Shown piece by piece: positions 1,795 through 46,700 of a DNA stretch of 64,000 bases; within the stretch, counting starts at the first letter, position 1; each line of letters begins with the position of its first letter. Source of the DNA: Taenia hydatigena (taxonomy: Eukaryota > Platyhelminthes > Cestoda > Cyclophyllidea > Taeniidae); NCBI GenBank assembly GCA_036345935.2, contig JADWOT020001562.1, positions 744,001 to 808,000 of the forward strand, read 5' to 3'. A model generated the notes under the pieces. It was not told the DNA's origin, ran no database searches, and worked only from the letters and a program-made list of their open reading frames with translations. The position numbers were made by a program, and so were the translations under genes.

Positions 1795-2943
1795 CTACTT
1801 CGTCGAGATGTACTCCGGTTTAACCAGTTTATGCAAACTACTGGGCCGCAGTCCCATTCTGGCTGCCACCACACCCGTGTACGCGTCCTCCAGAGGAAAG
1901 GTCTGCGTGAACAACATGCCTATCGCCAGTCGCTCCACCTGCCCAAAGCCCAACAGCAGGAAGGCACCACACGTGTATGTGGGATACACTGTCCACGGCA
2001 CCTCATGCTTCTCCACCGACCACTTGTTGAAGCCTCTCGGCACAAACCGTCGCACGGGAATGTCGAGCAGCACTTTGCCACGATACAATTGGGCTCGTGC
2101 CTCGGGCGAGAGTCCAACGATGGCATGAGAAAATTTCTTCACCGAAATGGGCAGATCGTCGTCAATGAAGATGAGGGTGGGTCGAGAGGTGCGACAGAAT
2201 GCGGCTGCCCATTGGAATGAATAGATGGTCTTCATGGTGAGGTTGAAGTACGTGTCCTCATAGTCACCCACCACCAGGTCATTGTAATTTGCGCGCTCCA
2301 CTTCAAAGCTTGCCGCAGTGGCACGAAGTCCCTCCGGAGTCAACTCTGAGCCTCCATTCGTTGTCAGCCTCGTTAGATTACCACCTCGCATGAACAGGTT
2401 GTCCTGTTGACTTCGTGGCACACCCACTGAAAATACCAGTCCGATGCGCATGCCCATGTTGACATTGGCGTTCTGGTTGGTGAATGAGGAGTAGAGATTG
2501 CGGAACTCTTGTCGTCGCTTGAAATTGGCCAGTGCGGATCGCACCACAATCACCAGATCAAAGAATTGACTTGATGGGTTGTCTGGATGACACACGTCTC
2601 TGCTGATTGTGCGATACCGAAACACGTGACCGTTCACTGGTAACTACAATGCCAACACAATGAAGATAATCGAGATAGTTAGAAGAGGAATGAAAGAGCA
2701 GACAAATGAACCTAGTTTGGAAATGGGAAGGAGGATGAGAGTTGCCAATGACTGACCTGTGGAATGGGTTTCTGTTGGAGGAGATTGTCGTAGACCTGAA
2801 TGAGATTGAAGGCTTGTGGATAGGTGAAGAAGACGTTGAAATGATGTATTCGTTGCCAGAGTTTGTCTGAATTTTTGACAAAGTCCATTTGGGTGAGATA
2901 TCTCCGCGATAAAACGTTTCCAGTTGGTTCACGGCTTGTGTTG
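1795..2943 (-). CDS. GT31 beta-1,3-galactosyltransferase-like protein (5' end uncertain)
   Basis: A family 31 glycosyltransferase, which transfers galactose or N-acetylglucosamine from a UDP-sugar onto glycans in the Golgi lumen. The last exon (2643 down to 1795, 283 codons including the stop) carries the family hallmarks: a metal-binding acidic cluster in FIDDDLP, the WSVEKHEVPWTVYPTYTCGA acceptor-side block, and the late PLEDAYTGVVAARMG block, which corresponds to the EDV motif of GT31. An upstream exon ends at 2757 (donor GTCAGT) and joins in phase 0 through acceptor TTGTAG; it reads DKLWQRIHHFNVFFTYPQ just before the junction. The frame stays open to about 2943, then meets stops and TRIM-derived DNA. 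No signal-anchor exon was found, so the gene is either 5'-incomplete in my model or truncated. Substrate specificity cannot be assigned. The family assignment is firm; functionality is uncertain. Confidence 0.75.
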
Positions 2944-7794: not shown

Positions 7795-8226
7795 TCATTT
7801 CTCATTCTCCAACTGCTTCACATACTTTGCAATGGCCTTGCGAATACGGAGCCTGGCTAAAATGAGAGGAAAGGTGTAAGTTATGGAGAAGCCTAGTCAA
7901 ATGCAAGCCTACCTTCCTCAACTATTTTCTTCAACTTGGCGAGGTGGTCAGCAATTTTTTGGCCAAGAGGATCTTCATCAAAGAACTTCTCCCATTTTGT
8001 TACCTTTTCATTGTATCTGGCTCGGATGGCACGGACTGGGTTTTTCTATCATGGACAAGGCTTAGACTTGCGTATCGTAAAGTTGGAGGTGGAGTGTGAT
8101 GAAGTTGACGGACTTACCTCTCTAGAAGACAAAGAGGAGGGATTAGAGCAATGGGGAGTACACTTACTCAGCAGAAACAGCCACGACAGCCAGGAGGGCG
8201 AGGAGAGCGATGATAGCGACCCGCAT
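7795..8226 (-). CDS. AgB: Antigen B / 8-kDa hydrophobic-ligand-binding protein, gene 1
   Basis: Secreted small alpha-helical lipoprotein-forming protein of cestodes. Antigen B family members bind fatty acids and other lipids and are abundant at the host interface. Exons on the minus strand: 8226-8168 (start and signal peptide MRVAIIALLALLAVVAVSAE), a 4-nt micro-exon 8121-8118 (AGAG), 8045-7913 and 7856-7795. All junctions are GT-AG and the phases agree, giving 85 residues, the same length as genes 2 and 3. The mature part is charged and helical with the family signature FFDEDPLGQK near residues 42-51 and ends KQLENEK. The gene is divergent from genes 2 and 3. A TATA-like box lies 52 bp upstream. 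The micro-exon is inferred because no other join kept the frame; without it the protein would end soon after the signal peptide. Confidence 0.9.
8118..8121 (-). other. Putative 4-nt micro-exon in antigen B gene 1
   Basis: Minus-strand context CTAG|AGAG|GTAAGT, between introns of 46 and 72 nt. It completes the split codon left by the signal-peptide exon (GA+A) and adds one GAG, giving Glu-Glu at residues 20-21. Gene 2 has the same AGAG directly fused to its second exon, which supports the assignment. Confidence 0.6.
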
Positions 8227-10682: not shown

Positions 10683-11078
10683 ATGCGCACCTACATTGTG
10701 CTCCTCGCTCTCAGCGCTTTTGTGGTTGCGGTTTCGGCCGAGTGGGTATCCATTTTGAGTTGTCTACATGGCCTCATCCAATGCCTGTTACATGCTCGAA
10801 TTAAAACCCTTTTTTCTTTAGAGAGCAAAAACCTGAGGACGTTATAAAAAGCATTAAAAAAGGGATGGAATGCATCTACAAATTCTTCTACGAAGACCCA
10901 TTGGGAAAAAGAATACTTCAACTCGCAAAGGACTGGAAAGAATCCATGCTGGAAGGTAAGTTCTAACATTTTCTGGCAGAAGATAATACTCTTCCCGTTC
11001 CTTTTTTATCTAGCCAGAGGCAAAGTTCGGGCGAGTCTGGCTGAGTACATCAAAACTCTCAAGAGCGAAGCTGATTAA
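10683..11078 (+). CDS. AgB: Antigen B / 8-kDa diagnostic antigen, gene 2
   Basis: Secreted helical lipid-binding antigen of the antigen B family, closest in my recollection to the Taenia 8-kDa diagnostic antigens. Exons: 10683-10741 (signal peptide MRTYIVLLALSAFVVAVSAE), 10822-10955 and 11014-11078. All junctions are GT-AG, and the total is 85 residues plus stop. The mature chain carries KPEDVIKSIKKG and then the family signature FFYEDPLGKR near residues 41-50, and ends YIKTLKSEAD. The intron after MLE falls in the same phase and position as the last intron of gene 1. There is a single Cys (about residue 37) in the mature protein. TATA box at 10637 and AATAAA at 11111. Unlike genes 1 and 3, no micro-exon is needed. 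Confidence 0.95.
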
Positions 11079-11116: not shown

Positions 11117-11371
11117 GACTAATTAATAAGAAATTTGCCTTGTGATAGTGCAACAAGGACTTCGGGCTGCGAACGTCTTAGTTTAAGGTTTTTGGGAGTA
11201 AAATGCACTAGACAATTGCACAACTTGAGCGTTGCTAATTCCACTTAAAAGCTACATTTATCCCGGAACGAATATTTGATGCATTATGGGACTAAATGAA
11301 ATACGACGTCCTGCGGTCGTCTCAAAAGCCGTCTGTGGCTTCATTAGTGAGGAGAATGTTTTGATACCAAC

Positions 11372-11780
11372 GTGAGGAGTGGCTAGAGAGCCAATGGGGT
11401 TGGCTGGAAGGTCGGTGCGTCTAAGATAAGCAGTTCCTCGGCCACTTCTCCCTTGACGACTATAATACAGTCGAGGTCACCAGTGCAGTCGTTCCCTTCA
11501 TTTAAAGATGCTTAAAACAGTCCAAAACCCAGATTTTGGGGATGGGAAACCTTACAGACACTGTGTAGTCCATTCGCTGTTCTACGTGACATCTGTCTGG
11601 TTGACCAGCCAACCTCAGGATGCGAGTGGGTGAGATTTCAAGAGCCTGATCATTATACATCCCATGTAAGTTTTAGTAGCTAGAATAATCAGAAGTGACG
11701 TCCAAGTCACCTCTAGAATCGCTATAGAGCTTCAGCCTTGACGACTAAAATGTCTGAGGAACCAGTAGCCCTAGCGCAAC
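11372..11780 (+). repeat. Tandem duplication of about 409 bp, copy 1
   Basis: Begins GTGAGGAGTGGCTAGAGAGC and is followed head-to-tail by a near-identical copy starting at 11781. Copy 1 carries about 25 extra bases around 11500-11530 that copy 2 lacks, and lacks an insertion near 11970. Non-coding; downstream of antigen B gene 2. Confidence 0.9.
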
Positions 11781-12178
11781 GTGAGGAACGGCTAGAGAGC
11801 CAATGGGGTTGGCTGAAAGGTCGACGCGTCTAAGACAAGCAGTTCCTCGGCCACTTCTCCCTTGACGACTATAATGCAATCGAGGTCACCAGTGCAGTCG
11901 TTACCTTCCAAATCTCAGTTTTTGGGGACGGGAAACCTTACAGATTCTGTGTAGTCCATGCTCTGCACCATTCGCTGTTCTACGTGACATCTGTCTGGAT
12001 GACCAGCCAACCTCAGGATGCGAGTGGGTGAGATTTCAAGAGCCTGATCATTATACATCCCATATAAGTTTTAGTAGCTAGAATAATCAGAAGTGACGTC
12101 CAAGTCACCTCTAGAATCGCTATAGAGCTTCAGCCTTGACGACTAAAATGTCTGAGGAACCAGTAGCCCTAGCGCAAC
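11781..12178 (+). repeat. Tandem duplication of about 409 bp, copy 2
   Basis: Begins GTGAGGAACGGCTAGAGAGC and ends ...CCCTAGCGCAAC, the same end as copy 1. The second half is almost identical to copy 1, so the duplication looks recent or homogenised. I recognise no coding content or known element. Confidence 0.9.
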
Positions 12179-17749: not shown

Positions 17750-18207
17750 ATGAGGGCGTCCATCTTTCTTGCGCTCGCCATCCTCGTTATTACCGTTGTC
17801 GCTGCCCCTGCCGAGTAAGTATTCTTTACTTCCATTACGTAAAATAATTGGGAGCTAAAATGACCTCATCTAACCCCCTAATGTTCTCTGCTTTGCCACT
17901 AGTGATAAGGTACGTGTGAGCCAAATATCCAGCGCTTTCGGTTGATAGCTGTCTTCCTGCCTTGATTCTGGGCACATGCTTTAAGCGATCCAGTTTGTGA
18001 ATGTGATTTCTCCTCTTTTAGGGACCTGAGGATATGAAGAAGAAAATGCTGAAGCAATTGGGTGAGGTGCGTCGCTTCTTCAGGGAGGATCCCCTGGGTC
18101 AGAAGCTTATTGATCAATTCCAAGATTTGGTTTCGATTGCCAAGGCAATCAGACAGCGAATAAGAAAACGCCTCGGCGAATACTTGAAGGGTCTTGAAAA
18201 CGAATAG
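17750..18207 (+). CDS. AgB: Antigen B / 8-kDa hydrophobic-ligand-binding protein, gene 3
   Basis: Third antigen B family member, also 85 residues and presumably secreted. Exons: 17750-17814 (signal peptide MRASIFLALAILVITVVAAP), a 7-nt micro-exon 17903-17909 (TGATAAG, giving Asp-Lys after completing the split Asp codon), and 18022-18207. The mature chain has PEDMKKKMLKQLGEVRRFF, the signature FFREDPLGQK and the ending EYLKGLENE. The intron that splits the C-terminal part of genes 1 and 2 is absent: the sequence reads straight through VSIAKAIRQRIRKRLG. The extra Pro-Ala-Asp-Asp at the signal-peptide junction is compensated elsewhere, so the total length is unchanged. AATAAA at 18236. Skipping the micro-exon would shift the frame and stop translation within a few codons. 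Confidence 0.9.
17903..17909 (+). other. Putative 7-nt micro-exon in antigen B gene 3
   Basis: Context CCACTAG|TGATAAG|GTACGT, between introns of 88 and 112 nt. It is required to keep the frame between the signal-peptide exon (ending in GA) and the third exon (starting GGACCTGAG). Confidence 0.6.
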
Positions 18208-20972: not shown

Positions 20973-23900
20973 ATGTCGCCATATGTTTTAATCAGCTCTT
21001 TATCTGCGCAGAGAATCCAAGGTATAGGTGTTCGTTTTATGCAAAAAAGCCTGCAGGACATGCTGCTTCTGTGCTTAAGTAGCAGTTGAGCTTTTCAGTA
21101 CTTTGGCTACCTGGTTACATATTCAGGGAAGACTCAAGGAGCTAAACCTCAGCCATATGCATTTATTTACTGTGCGTTGGACTGCACCATAAAATTCAAA
21201 GCAATTTTGTAAAACAATTACTGCATGCAGTTCTGACAACTTCTTAATAAATTGTCAAGTAGCTTATAAGTTATTCTATGGGCTTATTTTTGCAGATATC
21301 CTGAGGCACACAGTGTATACGACGCCCGAATAACTTAAAATCATCCAATTAAAATACTGAACTTTTTAATGATTACAACTTTTCAGTGCGGAATGGTGCT
21401 CAAATAATTTTCGCAAATCCAATTGCGCTATTTCCCAAAAGTGCCCGATTCAAGCGTCTCTAGTCGTGTGCGGTGGTGTGCTATCATGACGAACTGTAGC
21501 ATTATAAGTAAGAATGTCGATATAATGTAAAATATGGAACAATTTAGCAAATACAAGTGATGGCATTCGTTTCTTCAACTTTAACGCCGCAGATGGACTG
21601 AAGATCATTAACAAGTACTTCTTTGGTTTCTCCGTTCGCATTTCGATCCATCTTATGAATACTGACGGGAATGATTTTCTTTTTTGCTTGAAGAGAGTCG
21701 GGAAATGCAGCAAGGGCTATGTGTTACACACTGGATGGATCCGTCCTATCGATAAGTGATGGTAAAAGGTGCTGATTACGCGTCAACATGCTCGTTGATT
21801 ACCCTTCTGGTATCTTATCCTCATCAGCATATATTCTCATTCTCTTTTAGAATCAGTGTGCGTAATGGTGACGACAACGTTGAATTTGCTTCTATTGATA
21901 GTGGGGATGTTTCTAAATTGGCAATTTCACCAGATGCGAAATATATTTGTACATTCGCGCCATTTAGAAGTGGGTCGTCTGCCTACATTTTATACTACTT
22001 ATAACTCCTTAATAATTTGTTACGGCTGCTCTTAGAAACTCCCGAGCATCCAGAAGGTCGGCCGAATTTGCATGTCTTTGAGGTTGAGTCGGGTAAAATG
22101 GTCGACTCTCGCGTCCATACTCTGTCGGAAACATGGTCTGCTTAAATCTTCTAAACTTCTTATTCCTTCTAGGCGTCCGCAGTGGTCTCTCGACAGCAAT
22201 CTTTGCGTTCGCGTTTGGCAGGGCGAAATTCAATTCTATGTTAACAACAATCTCGGTAGGTATACAGCGGTTCTCGATGCTAAAATTTTCTTTATTCCTC
22301 CTTGCTAAGACGAAAAGCCAGCAAAAAGACTGACACTGAAAGGCATGCGGCACTGTTCACTCTCCAAGTCGTCGAGGAATCGCAACCTCGCCGTCTACAC
22401 GCCTGGTGAAAAGGTTAGCCTCCCTTTCTCACAATCTAGCTGGCTTGGTCGTAGAGTACACCTGCAACGGTATACATCTATGCTTGGCGAAACGGAGATT
22501 GCGTTCCTGTGGCTAATAAGTCATTCTTCCGCGCCGACACTGTCTCCTTCCACTGGAGTGATACTGGCACAAGCCTTCTGGTTCTCGCTTCCACCAAGGT
22601 TCGTTCCTACCACTACTTTTTTCTGTTTGCTCCGAACTGCGCATTACGGAGATGAAGTCTTCCTTGACCGCCACCAATGTTTTAACGCGTTTGATTCCAG
22701 TGGCGAATGTGTCGTGGATTCCAATTTTTTTGTATCTGAGGCAGTTGGTCGTAACAAGTTGCCACCAACAAATCAGTTGTTCTAGAAGCAGGTTAAGTGC
22801 TGGACAGGCATAACCTTTCAGCAAATACGTCCTTCTAAATGCTGAGCCGCTGGAACAATAAAACGCCTTGATTGCAGTTGTCAGTTTCCCCACGAGTCCA
22901 TAGTAATGCGCTCGCTAATTACCACCTCCCGTCACGCCTAGCTTTCCACTCTAGTTGCTTTTGAAGGCGTAATAAGGCATACAACTCTGGGAGTAGCTGT
23001 ACTTCCAACGTATAAAAGAGCTGGTGGATTGCGGTTCCAGTATCGCTCTTTCACCTCGGACATTTGAATGAATTTTAGTGTTTGATGAGAGATCAAGGTT
23101 CCTACGATAAATCTAATCGGAAGATAATCCTAATCTTTGTTGCCCATTGCAATGATGCTAATGCGAATGTTTTATTATGCGATGGGTGCGCTCTGTACGC
23201 CGTTCGCCTTTTGTGACCGCATCAGCTTGGAAGACACTCTACTTTTTGCCAACTTCACACATGTAGATGAGTGAGAATAGCTACTATGGCGAGCAAATGC
23301 TTCACTTTCTGACCACCGCGAAGAGTGGTGATTCCGCCTCCGTGCCGATGCCTCGATCGGGCCCGATTCACCAGGTCCTTTGGCGTCCCTCGGCTGGATT
23401 ACACGACAGACCCTCGGATGAACAATTTGTCGTCTGTCAGGGATGTGAGTGATTCTTATTCTGCCAGTCAATTATTGCCGTACCATGAACGCGACTAAAA
23501 CACTCCAATTTAGCTCTACCTTCTTCGGTCCTGGTCTTCAATATTAAATGCGAGAAGCTCTACTCCCTGGGTACGGGCCCTTGGAACCAGGTCTACTTCA
23601 ACCCCCAGGGAAGCCTCCTACTAGCTGGGGGTTTCGGTAGTTTGGACGGCAGCGTAGCAGTGTGGGACTACAAAAGCCAACGTCGCCTTTGTGAGTTCTC
23701 TGCACGCAACACAACCTACCTGACGTGGTTGCCAGACGGAGCGCACATTGTCACTGCTACCACGACGCCACGACTTCGGATCGACAATGGGTAAGAGGCT
23801 GCGCTTTTGTTCTCCTCTTTTGAGGTTTGGGCTCTTGTTGGCTGGCTTTTACCATGAATTGCTGCTGTAGTTTGTCCCTTATTTTCTTCCTTGAATTTTG

Positions 23901-26727: not shown

Positions 26728-28324
26728 TCAGTCCGTTTTTGTCTTAGGTTTGCCTTCCCTCAAGTAGAGATATACAAAGGAGAGGAGAAAGACACCCAAC
26801 ATCATTGAGATGGCGCTTGCGTAGTAGGGGTAGGCCGACGTGATGAAGCGCTCGTACTGCGTGTGTGTGAATGGACGAACGGAGATCTTTGGGAGGGACG
26901 AAACCACGTCAGAGCGAACGAAATAAAGAGACATTGAAAAGGAGGAGAAACTAACCTGTGTGGCACTAAATACGGAGGTATAACCAATTCGATGGTAATC
27001 CACAACCAATTTGAAAACCCCGTAAACGTCGGGCAGCTTCATCTGCATCTCGTAGCCGTGGTCTGAACACCAAATCAAGTTTGTGATAAAAAGACCCACC
27101 TTTGAACTTGAGGTTTCGACGTATGAATGGGTCAATTCGGACAAGTTCCAGCTGAATGTCCTCAGCTATGTAGTCTCGCCAAACACCGTTCTCGTCTTTT
27201 TCCACAATATCGATTTTGTAGATAATGTCGTCCGTTATTGTGTACTCATGACGGGCGATTGACTCACCAACCCTATGATGTGAGACGTTGGCAACACGAA
27301 GAACACCGGACTCCTTGAAGGTCCATCGCAAGAGATTATCACAGAACTCAGAGTTGCTAGAGCGTTCAAATCTGAAGTTTCCGAGTCGAAAAGCACGTAA
27401 GCTAGCTTACCGCCTGTTAGTAGCCTTGTTAACGACTGGAGAAGAGTAAAAGGCATCAGAAAACATCTCGATTGAACCGGCGAAGACGACACGGGCGTCG
27501 TTCCTGGCCTGCAGGGCCACGACAAGTTGTGTGTTCTTCCCAACTATGGTGGGATACTGTGAAACAACTTTTTTCGTGTCGTAAGAGAAGGACTTAGCTG
27601 ACCCATGCAAAACACTGATAAGGAGTGGGTTAGCGGGATCTGTGGAGATTCTAAAGAGAAAATAGAGTTGCAGGGATGCGGCTCACCCCACGCCACGGTA
27701 GAGAATGGGGTTCTTAAATCCTCCAGTAATAACCGGCACGTTTATAGCATTTTCTGGACTTGCAACGATTAGAGTATGCTAAAGGACCTGTAAAAGTGGC
27801 AAGGGTTTCTTACGTCCCCATTATCCATCTCATCGAAATTGTGATGATCAATAACGGATGAGTTGGACGCGTCGAATTCGACTCCACATTCACTGGCGAA
27901 ATCTCGAACAGCCTCTCCGAGTTCTGGACCTCCAGCAACGAGGACATTCCCACCATTGTCAACAAAATCAGTCAAAGCCTTTACACTTACATAGCCTCCA
28001 AACTCTAGAGCGAAATATGTATCGACGGAAAAGCCTTACCTGTTGTAGTAGGAGCAAAAATGATAACATGTTGGTAATTATATTCACCAAACTGCTTTAA
28101 ATCCAATGTGGAGTCGTCAGCATACTTAAAAGTAAGCCGGTAATTACGGTCTGCATAAAAACGAGTGAAGTGAGGCATGCAAAATTACCAGTAAGTGATT
28201 TGAAAAATCGAGAATGCGTATCACGAATAATGATGTTTTCTATGAGAACCAAAACATTTTTGTCACTAGCTTGGTTCTCAGTCTTAACCGAGAATAACAA
28301 GACAAACAGGAAGAAAAGCCTCAT
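26728..28324 (-). CDS. DDOST: Oligosaccharyltransferase 48-kDa subunit (OST48/DDOST)
   Basis: Essential non-catalytic subunit of the ER oligosaccharyltransferase, which transfers the lipid-linked glycan to Asn in nascent proteins. Exons on the minus strand: 28324-28189, 28150-28040, 28004-27814, 27778-27687, 27650-27411, 27371-27100, 27062-26956, 26886-26728. The sum is 1308 nt, or 435 residues, with every phase consistent. Features: signal peptide [33 protein letters not shown] near residue 105, [55 protein letters not shown] and a single C-terminal membrane segment. The tail ends KTKTD, a KXKXX ER-retrieval signal. Human OST48 is 456 residues. Confidence 0.96.
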
Positions 28325-37327: not shown

Positions 37328-38473
37328 ATGGACGAATTGGAAAGTTCTTCGACTGGGAGTTTTTTCCTACCTCCTAAGCCTATTATGACTAGCACTCAGG
37401 TTGGCGAGCGCTCATTGAGTGACAGTCGACCAAGAAGACGACTCAGACCACTCGATTCAGACGATGATGATGGGGACGGTGGAGACATCCCTGATGTCAG
37501 TGCTGCACCATTTCCCATTCTGACTCATCCGGCTGTTTCTCCAGTTGGTGATCATTTCAGCGAAGAGGGCGAAGAATTAGACGTTGGTGTTGGTGGTGGT
37601 ATTGACGTGGACTCGGTTCCCTCGGCTGATGAAGAGGGTAGTGATGAAGCAGAGGTTCAAGATCTGGACATTAAAACGTTGCGTCAACTTAAAAGTATCT
37701 CGGCAAGTGCTCGAAAGAAGACTGCACGACGACCACAGCCCAAGTTGGATCCACAAACGTACGCAAATTTTATTACTCGTTTTACCTTTTTTCCTTTCTA
37801 AGCCTTCTCGGTGAACGCGGTCTTCCAGCTCTCTTGAAGGACTTTGAAAATGTCCGATTTCGAGGCCGTGGTCATGAGGTAAACCGACTGGAATTTCTAA
37901 CGCACTTTTCCTGAATAGTTCGAAGATCTGGATAAGTTGATGTTCATCTATGAGTCGTGGGCGAATCGGATGCTGCCAAAATTCTCCTTCATGGATGTGA
38001 TAGAACGGTTAGAAGCTGTAGGCTCCAAACGAGAGGTCCAATCAGCCCTGAGGGGTATGCGGGCCGGCACCTGGCCACCAACTATTACCTCTGAATTTGT
38101 CCGTGATAGCAGTGACAGCAATTCGGAAAACGAGATGCCACTGCCTTTGGACAATCCACCGGAAAGTGAGGACATGCAGGAGTTACTGCGACTCCCTGAA
38201 GACGAGTCAGAGTCGCCAAAATCGTCTTCTCCTCTATCACTTCATCCTCCTGTGCCCTCCACTTCGACGATTGTGGCGGAAACGGAGTACGAGCAGGAGG
38301 AGGAGGAGAAGGAGAGTGTTGCAGCACGGATTGAACGAAATCGTCAGGCAGCTTTACAACGTCTGGAGGCAAAACGACGTGCGTCCATGCCCCACACCTA
38401 CACCTCGTACAGAGGCAGCCCCTCGGTTCTGCGAAAAGCTCTGCGTCCCCTGAATCCCTCAAACAATATATAA
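37328..38473 (+). CDS. TIPIN: TIMELESS-interacting protein (TIPIN/Swi3)
   Basis: Subunit of the replication fork protection complex; binds TIMELESS and RPA and supports checkpoint signalling and fork stability. Exons: 37328-37758, 37803-37878, 37919-38473, giving 353 residues. The N-terminal 140 residues are acidic and disordered. The Swi3 domain follows (about 145-215): KLDPQTLLGERGLPALLKDF, RFRGRGHEFEDLDKL and VGSKREVQSALRGM. Near residues 306-324 sits RIERNRQAALQRLEAKRR, the RPA32-binding helix type shared by TIPIN, XPA and UNG2. Human TIPIN is 301 residues. A strong acceptor-like GCATGTTTCAG lies 10 nt before the ATG, and the cyclophilin H stop is only 115 bp upstream. Confidence 0.93.
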
Positions 38474-42292: not shown

Positions 42293-43306
42293 TGTAATAC
42301 TGTGTTTGTTTGGACTTCCTGTCTCTGATCGGGGTAAAAAAGGTGGTCATATTGCTCTGAGCTGCGTGGTCTGGCCTCCAGGCCATGCCATCAGCCCCAT
42401 TCCCTCTGTAATTTGAATATATGTATATTCTGCCCTGGTACTCTGCCTTCTTTCGCCTTCAAGGGAGACTCAGGACGCTACATTGGTAGCAGCGGAAAGC
42501 GGACCCGACTTTATAGGGTTCCTATCCCGATCTCTATCACTTGTGGCACATTGCAGTGGTGCATGAGAAGTGCATGTGCTGCTGACTGGCGTATCTCCGA
42601 CGTCTCCTAGCAGAAAAGCGAAAAACGACGTCCACCTTCGACATCTACTCTATCTCCGTACTCCACAGGAGAGCTATTAACAACTGAAGTGACACCAGCC
42701 ATGGACCACCGGCAGAACCTCTTACTTCCGGAACTCCAAGTCCAGTCAAACTGCCAAAATGAACCCCTGACGTTGGTGTCGAGCATCGCCCTAATCGCGT
42801 TGAATGTCAGCGACTGGCATGGTTAGCTCGTATGTGCTTCTTGTAGCATTGATTACGATGTGATAGTTTGCGCGGGAGGTCCACGAAAGGGGGCATCGGC
42901 GACAATGCTCAAAGGAGAAGAGAGACAAAGCAAAACCTTGATTGGCTGGATTGCTGGTTGTAATCAGACTCAGAGAGGTGGCCATATTATCCTAGTTGCG
43001 TTGGTTGGCCTGCGGTCCATGCCTGTAGTACCTGGTTTGTTTGTACTACCGGTTTTTGGTTAGGGTCAGAGGGGTGACCATCTTGCCCTAGCTGCATAGG
43101 TTGGACGCTGGGCTATGCCAGCGGCTTATCTCCCCCTGCCCGTTAAATATATATATTCCACCCTAGTATTCTGTCTTCTTTTGCCTTCGAGGGAGCTTCG
43201 GGACGCTACAATGCCAGCAGCTCATTTCCCTCTGTCTGTTGAATGTATGTATTCTGCCCTGGCACTTTGCTTTCTTTTGCCTTCAAGGGAGCCTTGAGAC
43301 GCTGCT
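42293..43306 (+). mobile_element. TRIM-like retrotransposon, near-complete copy 2, interrupted
   Basis: 5' LTR 42293-42482 (TGTAATACTG...GACGCTACA), primer-binding-site-like TTGGTAGCAGCGGAAAGC directly after it, internal region without coding capacity, and a purine tract near 42911. The 3' LTR begins about 42959 and is cut after ATGCC at 43023 by a second LTR. It resumes at 43211 (ATGCCAGCAGCTC) and ends near 43306. Same orientation as copy 1, about 700 bp downstream of it. Confidence 0.85.
43024..43210 (+). mobile_element. Nested solo LTR with 5-bp target duplication
   Basis: 187-bp LTR starting TGTAGTACCTGG and ending GGGACGCTACA, flanked by ATGCC on both sides (43019-43023 and 43211-43215). 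It lies inside the 3' LTR of TRIM copy 2, which can be rejoined across it. This defines the LTR ends as TG...CA. Confidence 0.9.
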
Positions 43307-43707: not shown

Positions 43708-46700
43708 ATGGGAAATACACCACTGCATAGCAAGCGACGTCTTTCCGGTGATCTCGACGCGAATTCTCTTGAAGACACACCTCCTCATATTTCTATGGAT
43801 ATTCCCAGCAAGCGTCCCACCTTATCCGAACAAGAGGTATTTTTCACTAGAATTATACGTATTTTTTAATTCGTAACCTGCAAATCCATCACTGCTGCCA
43901 GGGGTTTCCTCGTTCTGCTCCTATTGGGAGCAACTTCGATAGGCAGGACGTGGATAACATGGCCTGGATGCTCCATGGGGCTAGCCTCCAGGACCATGGA
44001 TCCCCCATTAGGTCCATTCCTATCCCTTCTGGACCTTCTATGCGCCCAATCTCTCTCCCTGTACCATCTTCTGCTCAGGAGCTGCCTCCGGGCAACTACG
44101 CTTCCGGTGATTCAAGAGTGCTGAGTCAAAGTGTTGGAAACGGTGGTATAGATCTGTCTACAGACGTCGAAATGACCCCTACTGCTCCCCAAAAACATCT
44201 TCTTCCCACTGTCTTTCGTTGGAATGGTGGCGGACACGAAATTTATGTTAGCGGTACTTTTGACAACTGGCAAAGAAAAATACCAATGGCTCGGCGGTGA
44301 GTGAATCTTTTTCAATTTACGTTCGATTTATTTTAATCTTTAGGGTTTTGTTTACATTTTCACCCAATTTTGTTTGGAAGCGTGGTTTGTCAAGTTGTGA
44401 CACCTACTTGAGTGATTGTTTAGATTCTCATGTTCCGGTCTCATAGCGTGCCTTGGGATAGTTAAATTTTTCCTCAGTGGCCTTTTATTTCTGGTTCTGG
44501 ATAAATTTTGAGAGGTCTAAACTTCTTAATCTCTACTAACTGGGAAATTCTGTGAGTTTATAAGTACTCTTAAACTTTAACTGTGAATTTCGTTGCACCC
44601 TTTCTTGCCGCCTGTGTCTGTAAAATCCAAGGCTCCCTTTTTGTAGTTTAGTGGTTGATCTCATTCCGCTTTTAAAAAATTTCCAACCTATTCATGGACG
44701 TATCAAACTCAAAACAATTACCAGTTGTATTCTTTCACAACTGTTGCATTGTTCTTGATATTTTGTGCAGCCACTGTGGTCTTTTTGGTCTCAATTCCCT
44801 TGTCAGTATCTTTTCAAGGGTGGTGGTTGGTTTTTACATGGTAGACACCCATAGATTGCTCTAGAAGGCTCTATCGTACGCCACATGCATACCATCAGGG
44901 ATTTAAAGATACGAATTTCATGTCGAAGAGTCCTCGATCAAGTGCAAAAGTTGTCTCGATTCTCGGGAGCATTCAATGGCTGGAAAGTGACTACTTCACT
45001 CCTTCCCGTTCGCACTAAAACTTCAAAGACTCCCATTGCCATAGTCTGTGGTCTATTCCTACCTTTCACCTCATAGTTTCTTGCCCCCTTCTTATCATTT
45101 CTCCTGTAACAGTTGCTTACCCCAGGCTAGAAATTTGTAATGTAATTGCCTCTGGTCGCTTTAAGCTCAATCAATCCATTCACAATGACATTCGGTGCAA
45201 CAGATTGTCATGAACCGACGAAATGTGCATATTACACGTATTTCACTGGTAGTGGGTGCGTTAACATCTTACCTTTTTGTTGTCGGTCTCGACCGCCTTT
45301 TGTCTGTAACTACTTTTTGGAAGGCTCTATCACGTGTCATGCGCGCACATGTGCCTTCCATGAGTCATCCAACCTCCTAGACTTGAGGGTTTGGCCTGGT
45401 CGGATTGGAGATGGTCAATTTAAATGCCTCTGCGAGGCCAATGCTCAATTGCAGCACTTAATCAAGGATGCGTTATTCACCACCGCTATCGCTATTTACC
45501 GTGTTCAAAGCCACTGCTAATCCACTACTGAGAATGCGCCTGTTAAGTTTTTTTTCTATCTTAATTTCGTGCTGTCTAGTGCATTTTTGTACCCACGCAT
45601 AAACTAATTACACCAGTCAAGCTCGGTACAATTTGTTGCCTACGCGGTGGGACGCTTGCGTTATTATGAACACGGAAAATCGTTTACGTGACCCTCCGAT
45701 GGAAAAAAATGAATCATCTACTTATTTTTTCTGTTGATAGGAAATCTGGCCACGTGGTGATTGTGGACTGTCCACCCGGCAGACACGAATACAAATTCTT
45801 CATCGATGGTGCCTGGTATCACGATCCCACTAAGGTTAGTTTTTATTTGGTCTAAACCTTTTTTAAAGTGGTGGAACTCTACTATTAACTACTCTCCTGC
45901 TACTGCAAAATTTGCATAATTAAGCCAGCTTATTCAAATTGGGGCGCGAATTATGCAAAGTGCATGCGAGGGCGGGGTGGGAGAGTTTACGGGTGTAATC
46001 CCTTCCCTACCTATTGCTACCGCATTTCTGGTAAGGTATAAGCATAAAAATTTTTGCACTTTTGGGCTACTGGGATGCATTTTTCTGTTGTTCCTTCCCC
46101 TGGATTCATGAAAATTGTAATTACATCCCATTTCTCTGCTTTTGGAAACGTAAGAAACCATTCCAAGTGCATTTTCACTTGATTAACACACGCTATCAGG
46201 GCCTCTGAAGAGTCGATCCACTCGACCGCTGCCTAACATTGAAGAAGACTTAATTATTCTTACTCCCAGAACGTTCGACATCTATTTCACTTCTGTTTTA
46301 CCCTCAACCGATCGGATTGCAATAAAATCTAGTGTATTTAGCCATCACAACCTGGGGTGTCACATATACGTGGCGCTGGAAGGGCTATTGTAAAGCGATG
46401 ATAGAGAGGATGTGAGTACAGCAGTACGCGGCTAGATCTCCGGCGTTCATGTCCAACAAATATGCCTAGCTCATCATTTTGTGCGCACACTCACACACAC
46501 GTATACGTCTGCATGATTGCCGTCAATATGTTTACTATCCTGGTGATAACTCATTCGGGTAGGTGTTTGGCGTTAGGTCTTGGTTTTGGCGTGCACGAAT
46601 TTCCGGTCAGGGGTCTTCGGTACGAAGAACTGACTCGTAAAATAATATAATCCGTCCACTACCTTTTTGGTGGTCCCTATTTAGTTGCATTTACTGAATG

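Follow-up and report, generated by a model that had tools for sequence, protein, structure and literature searches.

In the 64-kb window (the whole stretch of DNA analysed here), Pfam recognises three Taeniidae antigen (PF05596) genes from pieces of their main exons; membership of this family makes a tapeworm the likely source of the DNA. The pieces of genes 1, 2 and 3 score 45.6, 40.9 (over 10829-10954) and 84.7 bits, respectively, all above the gathering cut-off of 31.9 bits. A TBLASTN search of the window with the exon pieces yielded no fourth copy (best other match, E 0.36). The exons and introns of the three genes in their best-scoring in-frame models are as follows.

8226-7795, minus strand: gene 1, whole
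8168-8226, minus strand: gene 1 exon 1, 59 nt, with the likely signal peptide, ending in the split codon GA and followed by GTAAGT
8122-8167, minus strand: gene 1 intron 1, 46 nt, phase 2
8118-8121, minus strand: gene 1 predicted micro-exon AGAG, 4 nt
8046-8117, minus strand: gene 1 intron 2, 72 nt, phase 0, with a perfect GTAAGT donor and the weak acceptor TGATAG
7913-8045, minus strand: gene 1 main exon, 133 nt, with the PF05596 match
7795-7856, minus strand: gene 1 last exon, 62 nt including the stop, preceded by a 56-nt phase-1 intron
10683-11078, plus strand: gene 2, whole
10683-10741, plus strand: gene 2 exon 1, 59 nt, ending in GA and followed by GTGGGT
10822-10955, plus strand: gene 2 main exon, 134 nt, starting with AGAG that has no intron after it
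11014-11078, plus strand: gene 2 last exon, 65 nt including the stop, preceded by a 58-nt phase-1 intron
17750-18207, plus strand: gene 3, whole
17750-17814, plus strand: gene 3 exon 1, 65 nt, ending in GA and followed by GTAAGT
17903-17909, plus strand: gene 3 predicted micro-exon TGATAAG, 7 nt, with an 88-nt phase-2 intron on its 5' side and a 112-nt phase-0 intron on its 3' side
18022-18207, plus strand: gene 3 main exon, 186 nt including the stop, with the PF05596 match and no 3' intron

With the micro-exons included, the coding lengths are 59+4+133+62 = 258 nt for gene 1 and 65+7+186 = 258 nt for gene 3, and the exons of gene 2 also total 258 nt, so that the 85 residues (plus stop) assigned to each of the three genes in an earlier note on this DNA are correct. 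Exon 1 of all three genes encodes a hydrophobic stretch of 19-21 residues with A as the last residue, as read from the translation. In every gene a TATA-like box precedes the ATG by 46-59 nt (59 nt in gene 1) and AATAAA follows the stop by 28-39 nt (39 nt in gene 1), and for this reason the three genes look intact.

Several other features of the window were recorded. The short phase-1 intron near the 3' end of genes 1 (7857-7912, minus strand, 56 nt) and 2 (10956-11013, plus strand, 58 nt) is lacking in gene 3. About 400 bp on the 3' side of gene 2 (11368-12178) are duplicated head to tail; the copies measure 211, 132 and 59 nt, with identities of 99, 93 and 86%, respectively, and their spacing is 386-409; a 96-nt tandem unit in two copies, 77% matching, lies at 43115-43303. 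A Pfam scan of 20 long open frames in the window identified neighbouring frames with galactosyltransferase (1798-2643, minus strand), OST48 (26731-27406, minus strand), Swi3 (37919-38470, plus strand) and AMPK glycogen-binding (43851-44297, plus strand) domains. The Rfam search gave no matches, and the sole match among solved structures, talin (E 0.1), was regarded as chance. Searched with the pattern of the gene 3 main exon, collections of genome contigs and viral contigs returned 165 and 24 matches, respectively, with no relatives among them, as expected for a tapeworm gene.

Reading the sequence of gene 1 directly, we find, as did the earlier note, that exon 1 ends in the split codon GA and that the next coding block, open from 8045, is in phase 0. 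We listed the GT-AG joins from exon 1 to the main exon that keep the frame and are free of stops: single-intron models (donors at least 30 nt past the ATG, introns at least 30 nt) and two-intron models (first donor scoring at least 0, internal exon at most 60 nt, introns at least 25 nt). With generic metazoan splice-site matrices, not trained on tapeworms, the summed score is 16.6 for the model with the 4-nt exon AGAG, 5.5 for the next two-intron model and -4.7 to -8.3 for the single-intron models. The earlier note had placed this exon at 8118-8121, with coordinates and phases that hold, and had taken it for the only join that keeps the frame; it is the best-scoring one, but four two-intron models, this one included, and three single-intron models keep the frame. 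A 2-nt micro-exon derived from the tandem AGAGAG acceptor was rejected, since it stays in frame only when joined to a poor acceptor that lies within the main exon (score 5.5 versus 16.6).

The context of AGAG is TTTGTCTTCTAG-AGAG-GTAAGT: the acceptor, which reads CTAG (5.6), and the donor (7.9) are the strongest of the interval, the donor of exon 1 scoring 1.8. The 3' end of intron 1 has 16 pyrimidines among the 17 nucleotides before the AG and a branch-like CTAAT about 21 nt from the end. The single-intron joins would remove one intron from a weak donor within the signal exon (after 8185, 8179 or 8188) to 8045. All three keep the frame; however, their donors score -5.9 to -9.6, far from the values for the exon 1 and micro-exon donors, and the signal peptide would be shortened, and we give such splicing hardly any credence.

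The chance expectation was determined in three ways. In 20000 dinucleotide shuffles of the 122-nt interval of gene 1, with its first 6 and last 14 bases fixed, an internal exon of 1-30 nt that is in phase, free of stops and bounded by sites of the strength found in gene 1 never occurred, nor did such an in-phase exon occur in 12448 natural 122-nt segments from outside the three genes (both strands, overlapping, step 10). Among all acceptor-donor pairs 1-30 nt apart in the 128 kb of both strands, a single one reaches the score of gene 1, namely that of gene 1 itself. The bare pattern YAG-N(1,4..28)-GTRNGT, on the other hand, is found 72 times in 128 kb, including 28 cases with 1, 4 or 7 nt, and the case of gene 1 therefore rests on site quality. 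Elsewhere in the window, a micro-exon-like pair, TCTCTTTTAG-AATCAGT-GTGCGT, is located at 21851-21857 (plus strand) in no gene recognised here.

A phase clash between two exons could also be mimicked by an error of one or two bases, if gene 1 were mis-assembled or a decayed copy in which no micro-exon is used. The window is one sequence without reads behind it, and two of the three genes look out of phase without a micro-exon, as such an explanation would have it. Still, the rest of the gene 1 reading is open and is flanked by the TATA-like box and AATAAA, gene 3 shows the same phase pattern, and a base error would not create between the exons the best acceptor-donor pair of 128 kb. We regard this explanation as very unlikely.

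The best models of genes 1-3 all place a phase-2 intron behind the signal peptide; in those of genes 1 and 3 a second intron, of phase 0, follows a few bases later. Gene 2 needs no micro-exon: its best single-intron model scores 7.0 and the next one 0.55. As was claimed earlier, the same AGAG is found at the start of its main exon, at 10822, fused to the exon without an intron and behind an acceptor similar to that of gene 1. In gene 3 the best in-frame model includes a 7-nt exon, not mentioned in the earlier note, in the context CTAG-TGATAAG-GTACGT and scores 16.4, compared with at most 1.0 for six single-intron models, whose donors are very weak and lie inside the signal exon, and 11.9 for a variant with a 13-nt exon (17903-17915), a possible alternative that would encode 87 residues. 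This micro-exon has a weak acceptor, scoring 0.4 against 0.8 for another AG at 17949, and its site score is reached in 145 cases among 20000 shuffles and in 203 among 12379 natural segments; taken alone, the 7-nt exon has moderate evidence in the sequence. When the proteins are aligned by eye on a proline (EEKNP, EEQKP and DDKGP in genes 1, 2 and 3, respectively), the second intron of gene 3 falls one codon beyond that of gene 1, which could mean that the intron slid, that codons were gained or lost, or that the two introns had separate origins.

AGAG at 8121-8118 is read here as what is likely a real, constitutively included coding micro-exon that would bridge the phase-2 signal exon and the phase-0 main exon. 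The two-intron layout predicted around the 7-nt exon of gene 3 supports this reading. Both the uninterrupted AGAG of gene 2 and the strong sites of gene 1 point to constitutive use. Against this reading counts the final acceptor of gene 1 (at 8046), which is weak (1.3, with pyrimidines at 10 of 17 positions).

The earlier note had gone further and proposed that inclusion of the exon acts as an on/off switch, skipping being said to truncate the protein right after the signal peptide. Skipping would indeed be disabling; the frame, however, would run 15 residues (E and 14 more) past the signal to a stop at 8002-8000, giving a product of 34 residues. Retention of intron 1 leads to a near-immediate stop (GAG TAA). 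The stop of the skipped form lies 87 nt before the end of its exon, with a further junction downstream, so that the message may be degraded; the 50-nt rule is the usual criterion for decay of prematurely stopped messages. These properties would fit a regulated exon, but the sites around it, being the strongest of the interval, favour constant inclusion, which is the simpler reading; moreover, gene 2 carries AGAG fixed in its exon, and the stop of a skipped form of gene 3 would fall in the last exon of that gene. A switch is accordingly not upheld, and we consider it unlikely.

Four bases separate the two splice sites of the proposed constitutive micro-exon, so little that both can hardly be occupied jointly, and we therefore infer that gene 1 would be spliced in two successive steps of intron definition. 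The first intron to be removed would probably be intron 1, given its pyrimidine tract, its CTAAT and the best acceptor of the interval, and AGAG would thereby be joined to exon 1. The retained GTAAGT donor behind AGAG would then pair with the weak acceptor at 8046. In both micro-exon genes the mature protein would receive its first acidic residues from the tiny exon, namely EE in gene 1 and DDK in gene 3, the EE of gene 2 coming from the fused AGAG. Since skipping breaks the frame, the length of the micro-exon would be expected to stay at 1 modulo 3.

The proposed process would resemble a recursive splice site four bases wide. A recursive splice site is a zero-length exon, in which the acceptor AG abuts the donor GT and no base is kept. 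Gene 1 shares with such sites a pyrimidine tract and acceptor with a strong donor close behind, as well as the stepwise removal proposed here, but four bases would remain in the message, and the interval spans 122 nt instead of the length of a long intron; since these four bases separate CTAG from GTAAGT in the model that keeps the frame, gene 1 falls outside the definition.

A close counterpart is the 1-nt exon of Arabidopsis APC11, which also carries the frame and is too small for exon definition (PMC4674806). It is constitutive in Arabidopsis, and Guo and Liu, considering its sites not to be bound jointly, propose intron definition and recursive splicing; before that report (2015), the smallest known exons are given there as 6 nt (constitutive) and 3 nt (alternative). 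The two cases differ in that APC11 is a plant gene with a 1-nt exon documented by cDNA and reporter assays, whereas the exon of gene 1 has 4 nt, is predicted and is likely from an animal. In a potato case cited in the same paper the second intron is removed first, opposite to the order proposed here. With regard to intron size, the short introns of tapeworms peak near 36 and 73 bp, and the 46 and 72 nt of gene 1 fit these short introns; Taenia introns beside small exons, unlike those of gene 1, tend to be long, with minimal means of 370-502 bp (PMC5036155).

Schistosomes and tapeworms also have micro-exon genes (MEGs), with very small internal exons that gene finders and read aligners miss (PMC7653826). 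MEGs contain many micro-exons with lengths divisible by three, whereas we find one per gene, of length 1 modulo 3. The criteria described for MEGs are seven or more exons and micro-exons whose lengths are divisible by three and which come in runs of at least four; with four and three exons, respectively, and a single micro-exon of 4 or 7 nt, genes 1 and 3 are not MEGs as described there. Among the titles and opening abstracts returned by searches of openly licensed PMC papers, none reports a micro-exon in a gene for antigen B or for a Taeniidae antigen.

The antigen B genes of Echinococcus granulosus (EgAgB) belong to the same Pfam family as genes 1-3 and have, as is likely for these too, the signal peptide in exon 1 and the mature protein in a following exon (PMC2919375). 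The statement that antigen B genes are usually described as two-exon genes is right for this species: EgAgB is described with two exons and one intron, whereas the best models of genes 1, 2 and 3 have four, three and three exons and an exon of 4 or 7 nt is predicted in two of the three. For E. granulosus, second exons of 198 bp (65 residues), 213 bp (70 residues) and 216 bp (71 residues) are given (PMC2919375). If complete, these lengths would mean a phase-0 intron, matching intron 2 of gene 1 and not intron 1, which suggests that the two-intron state is the older one, a hint drawn from the published lengths alone. The introns of E. granulosus AgB3 measure 137-152 bp, compared with 67-89 bp in the other subfamilies (PMC2919375), and would have room for a former micro-exon. 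In AgB2 of Echinococcus canadensis, as would hold for the genes described here, the making of a functional subunit depends on how the intron behind the signal exon is spliced (PMC5234841). There, a change of the splice acceptor was proposed to abolish the product, whereas in gene 1 the two acceptors both have AG and the model stays in frame; the proposed loss of AgB2 suggests that splicing at this place has changed before in this family.

Taken together, these comparisons allow a tentative reading, which we hold to be possible rather than probable. The ancestral cestode antigen B gene may have had a tiny, frame-carrying exon where the signal meets the mature protein, between a phase-2 and a phase-0 intron, which genes 1 and 3 would retain as 4 and 7 nt; gene 2 would have lost the phase-0 intron, leaving AGAG fused, and Echinococcus the phase-2 intron, leaving two-exon genes with a phase-0 intron. 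On the same reading, the 4-nt exon would rank with the smallest coding exons that animals include constitutively, and its splicing would take two ordered steps.

Antigen B and its Taenia relatives are main diagnostic antigens of tapeworm disease and form a much duplicated family. A frame-carrying exon of 4 nt would escape ordinary gene finders and aligners, and members of the family may therefore be truncated, dropped or called pseudogenes. If confirmed by transcripts, AGAG of gene 1 would rank among the smallest known animal coding exons; if the micro-exon is real, gene 1 would also be a natural test of the minimum spacing between two splice sites, and its layout yields a checkable prediction on the origin of the two-exon genes of Echinococcus.
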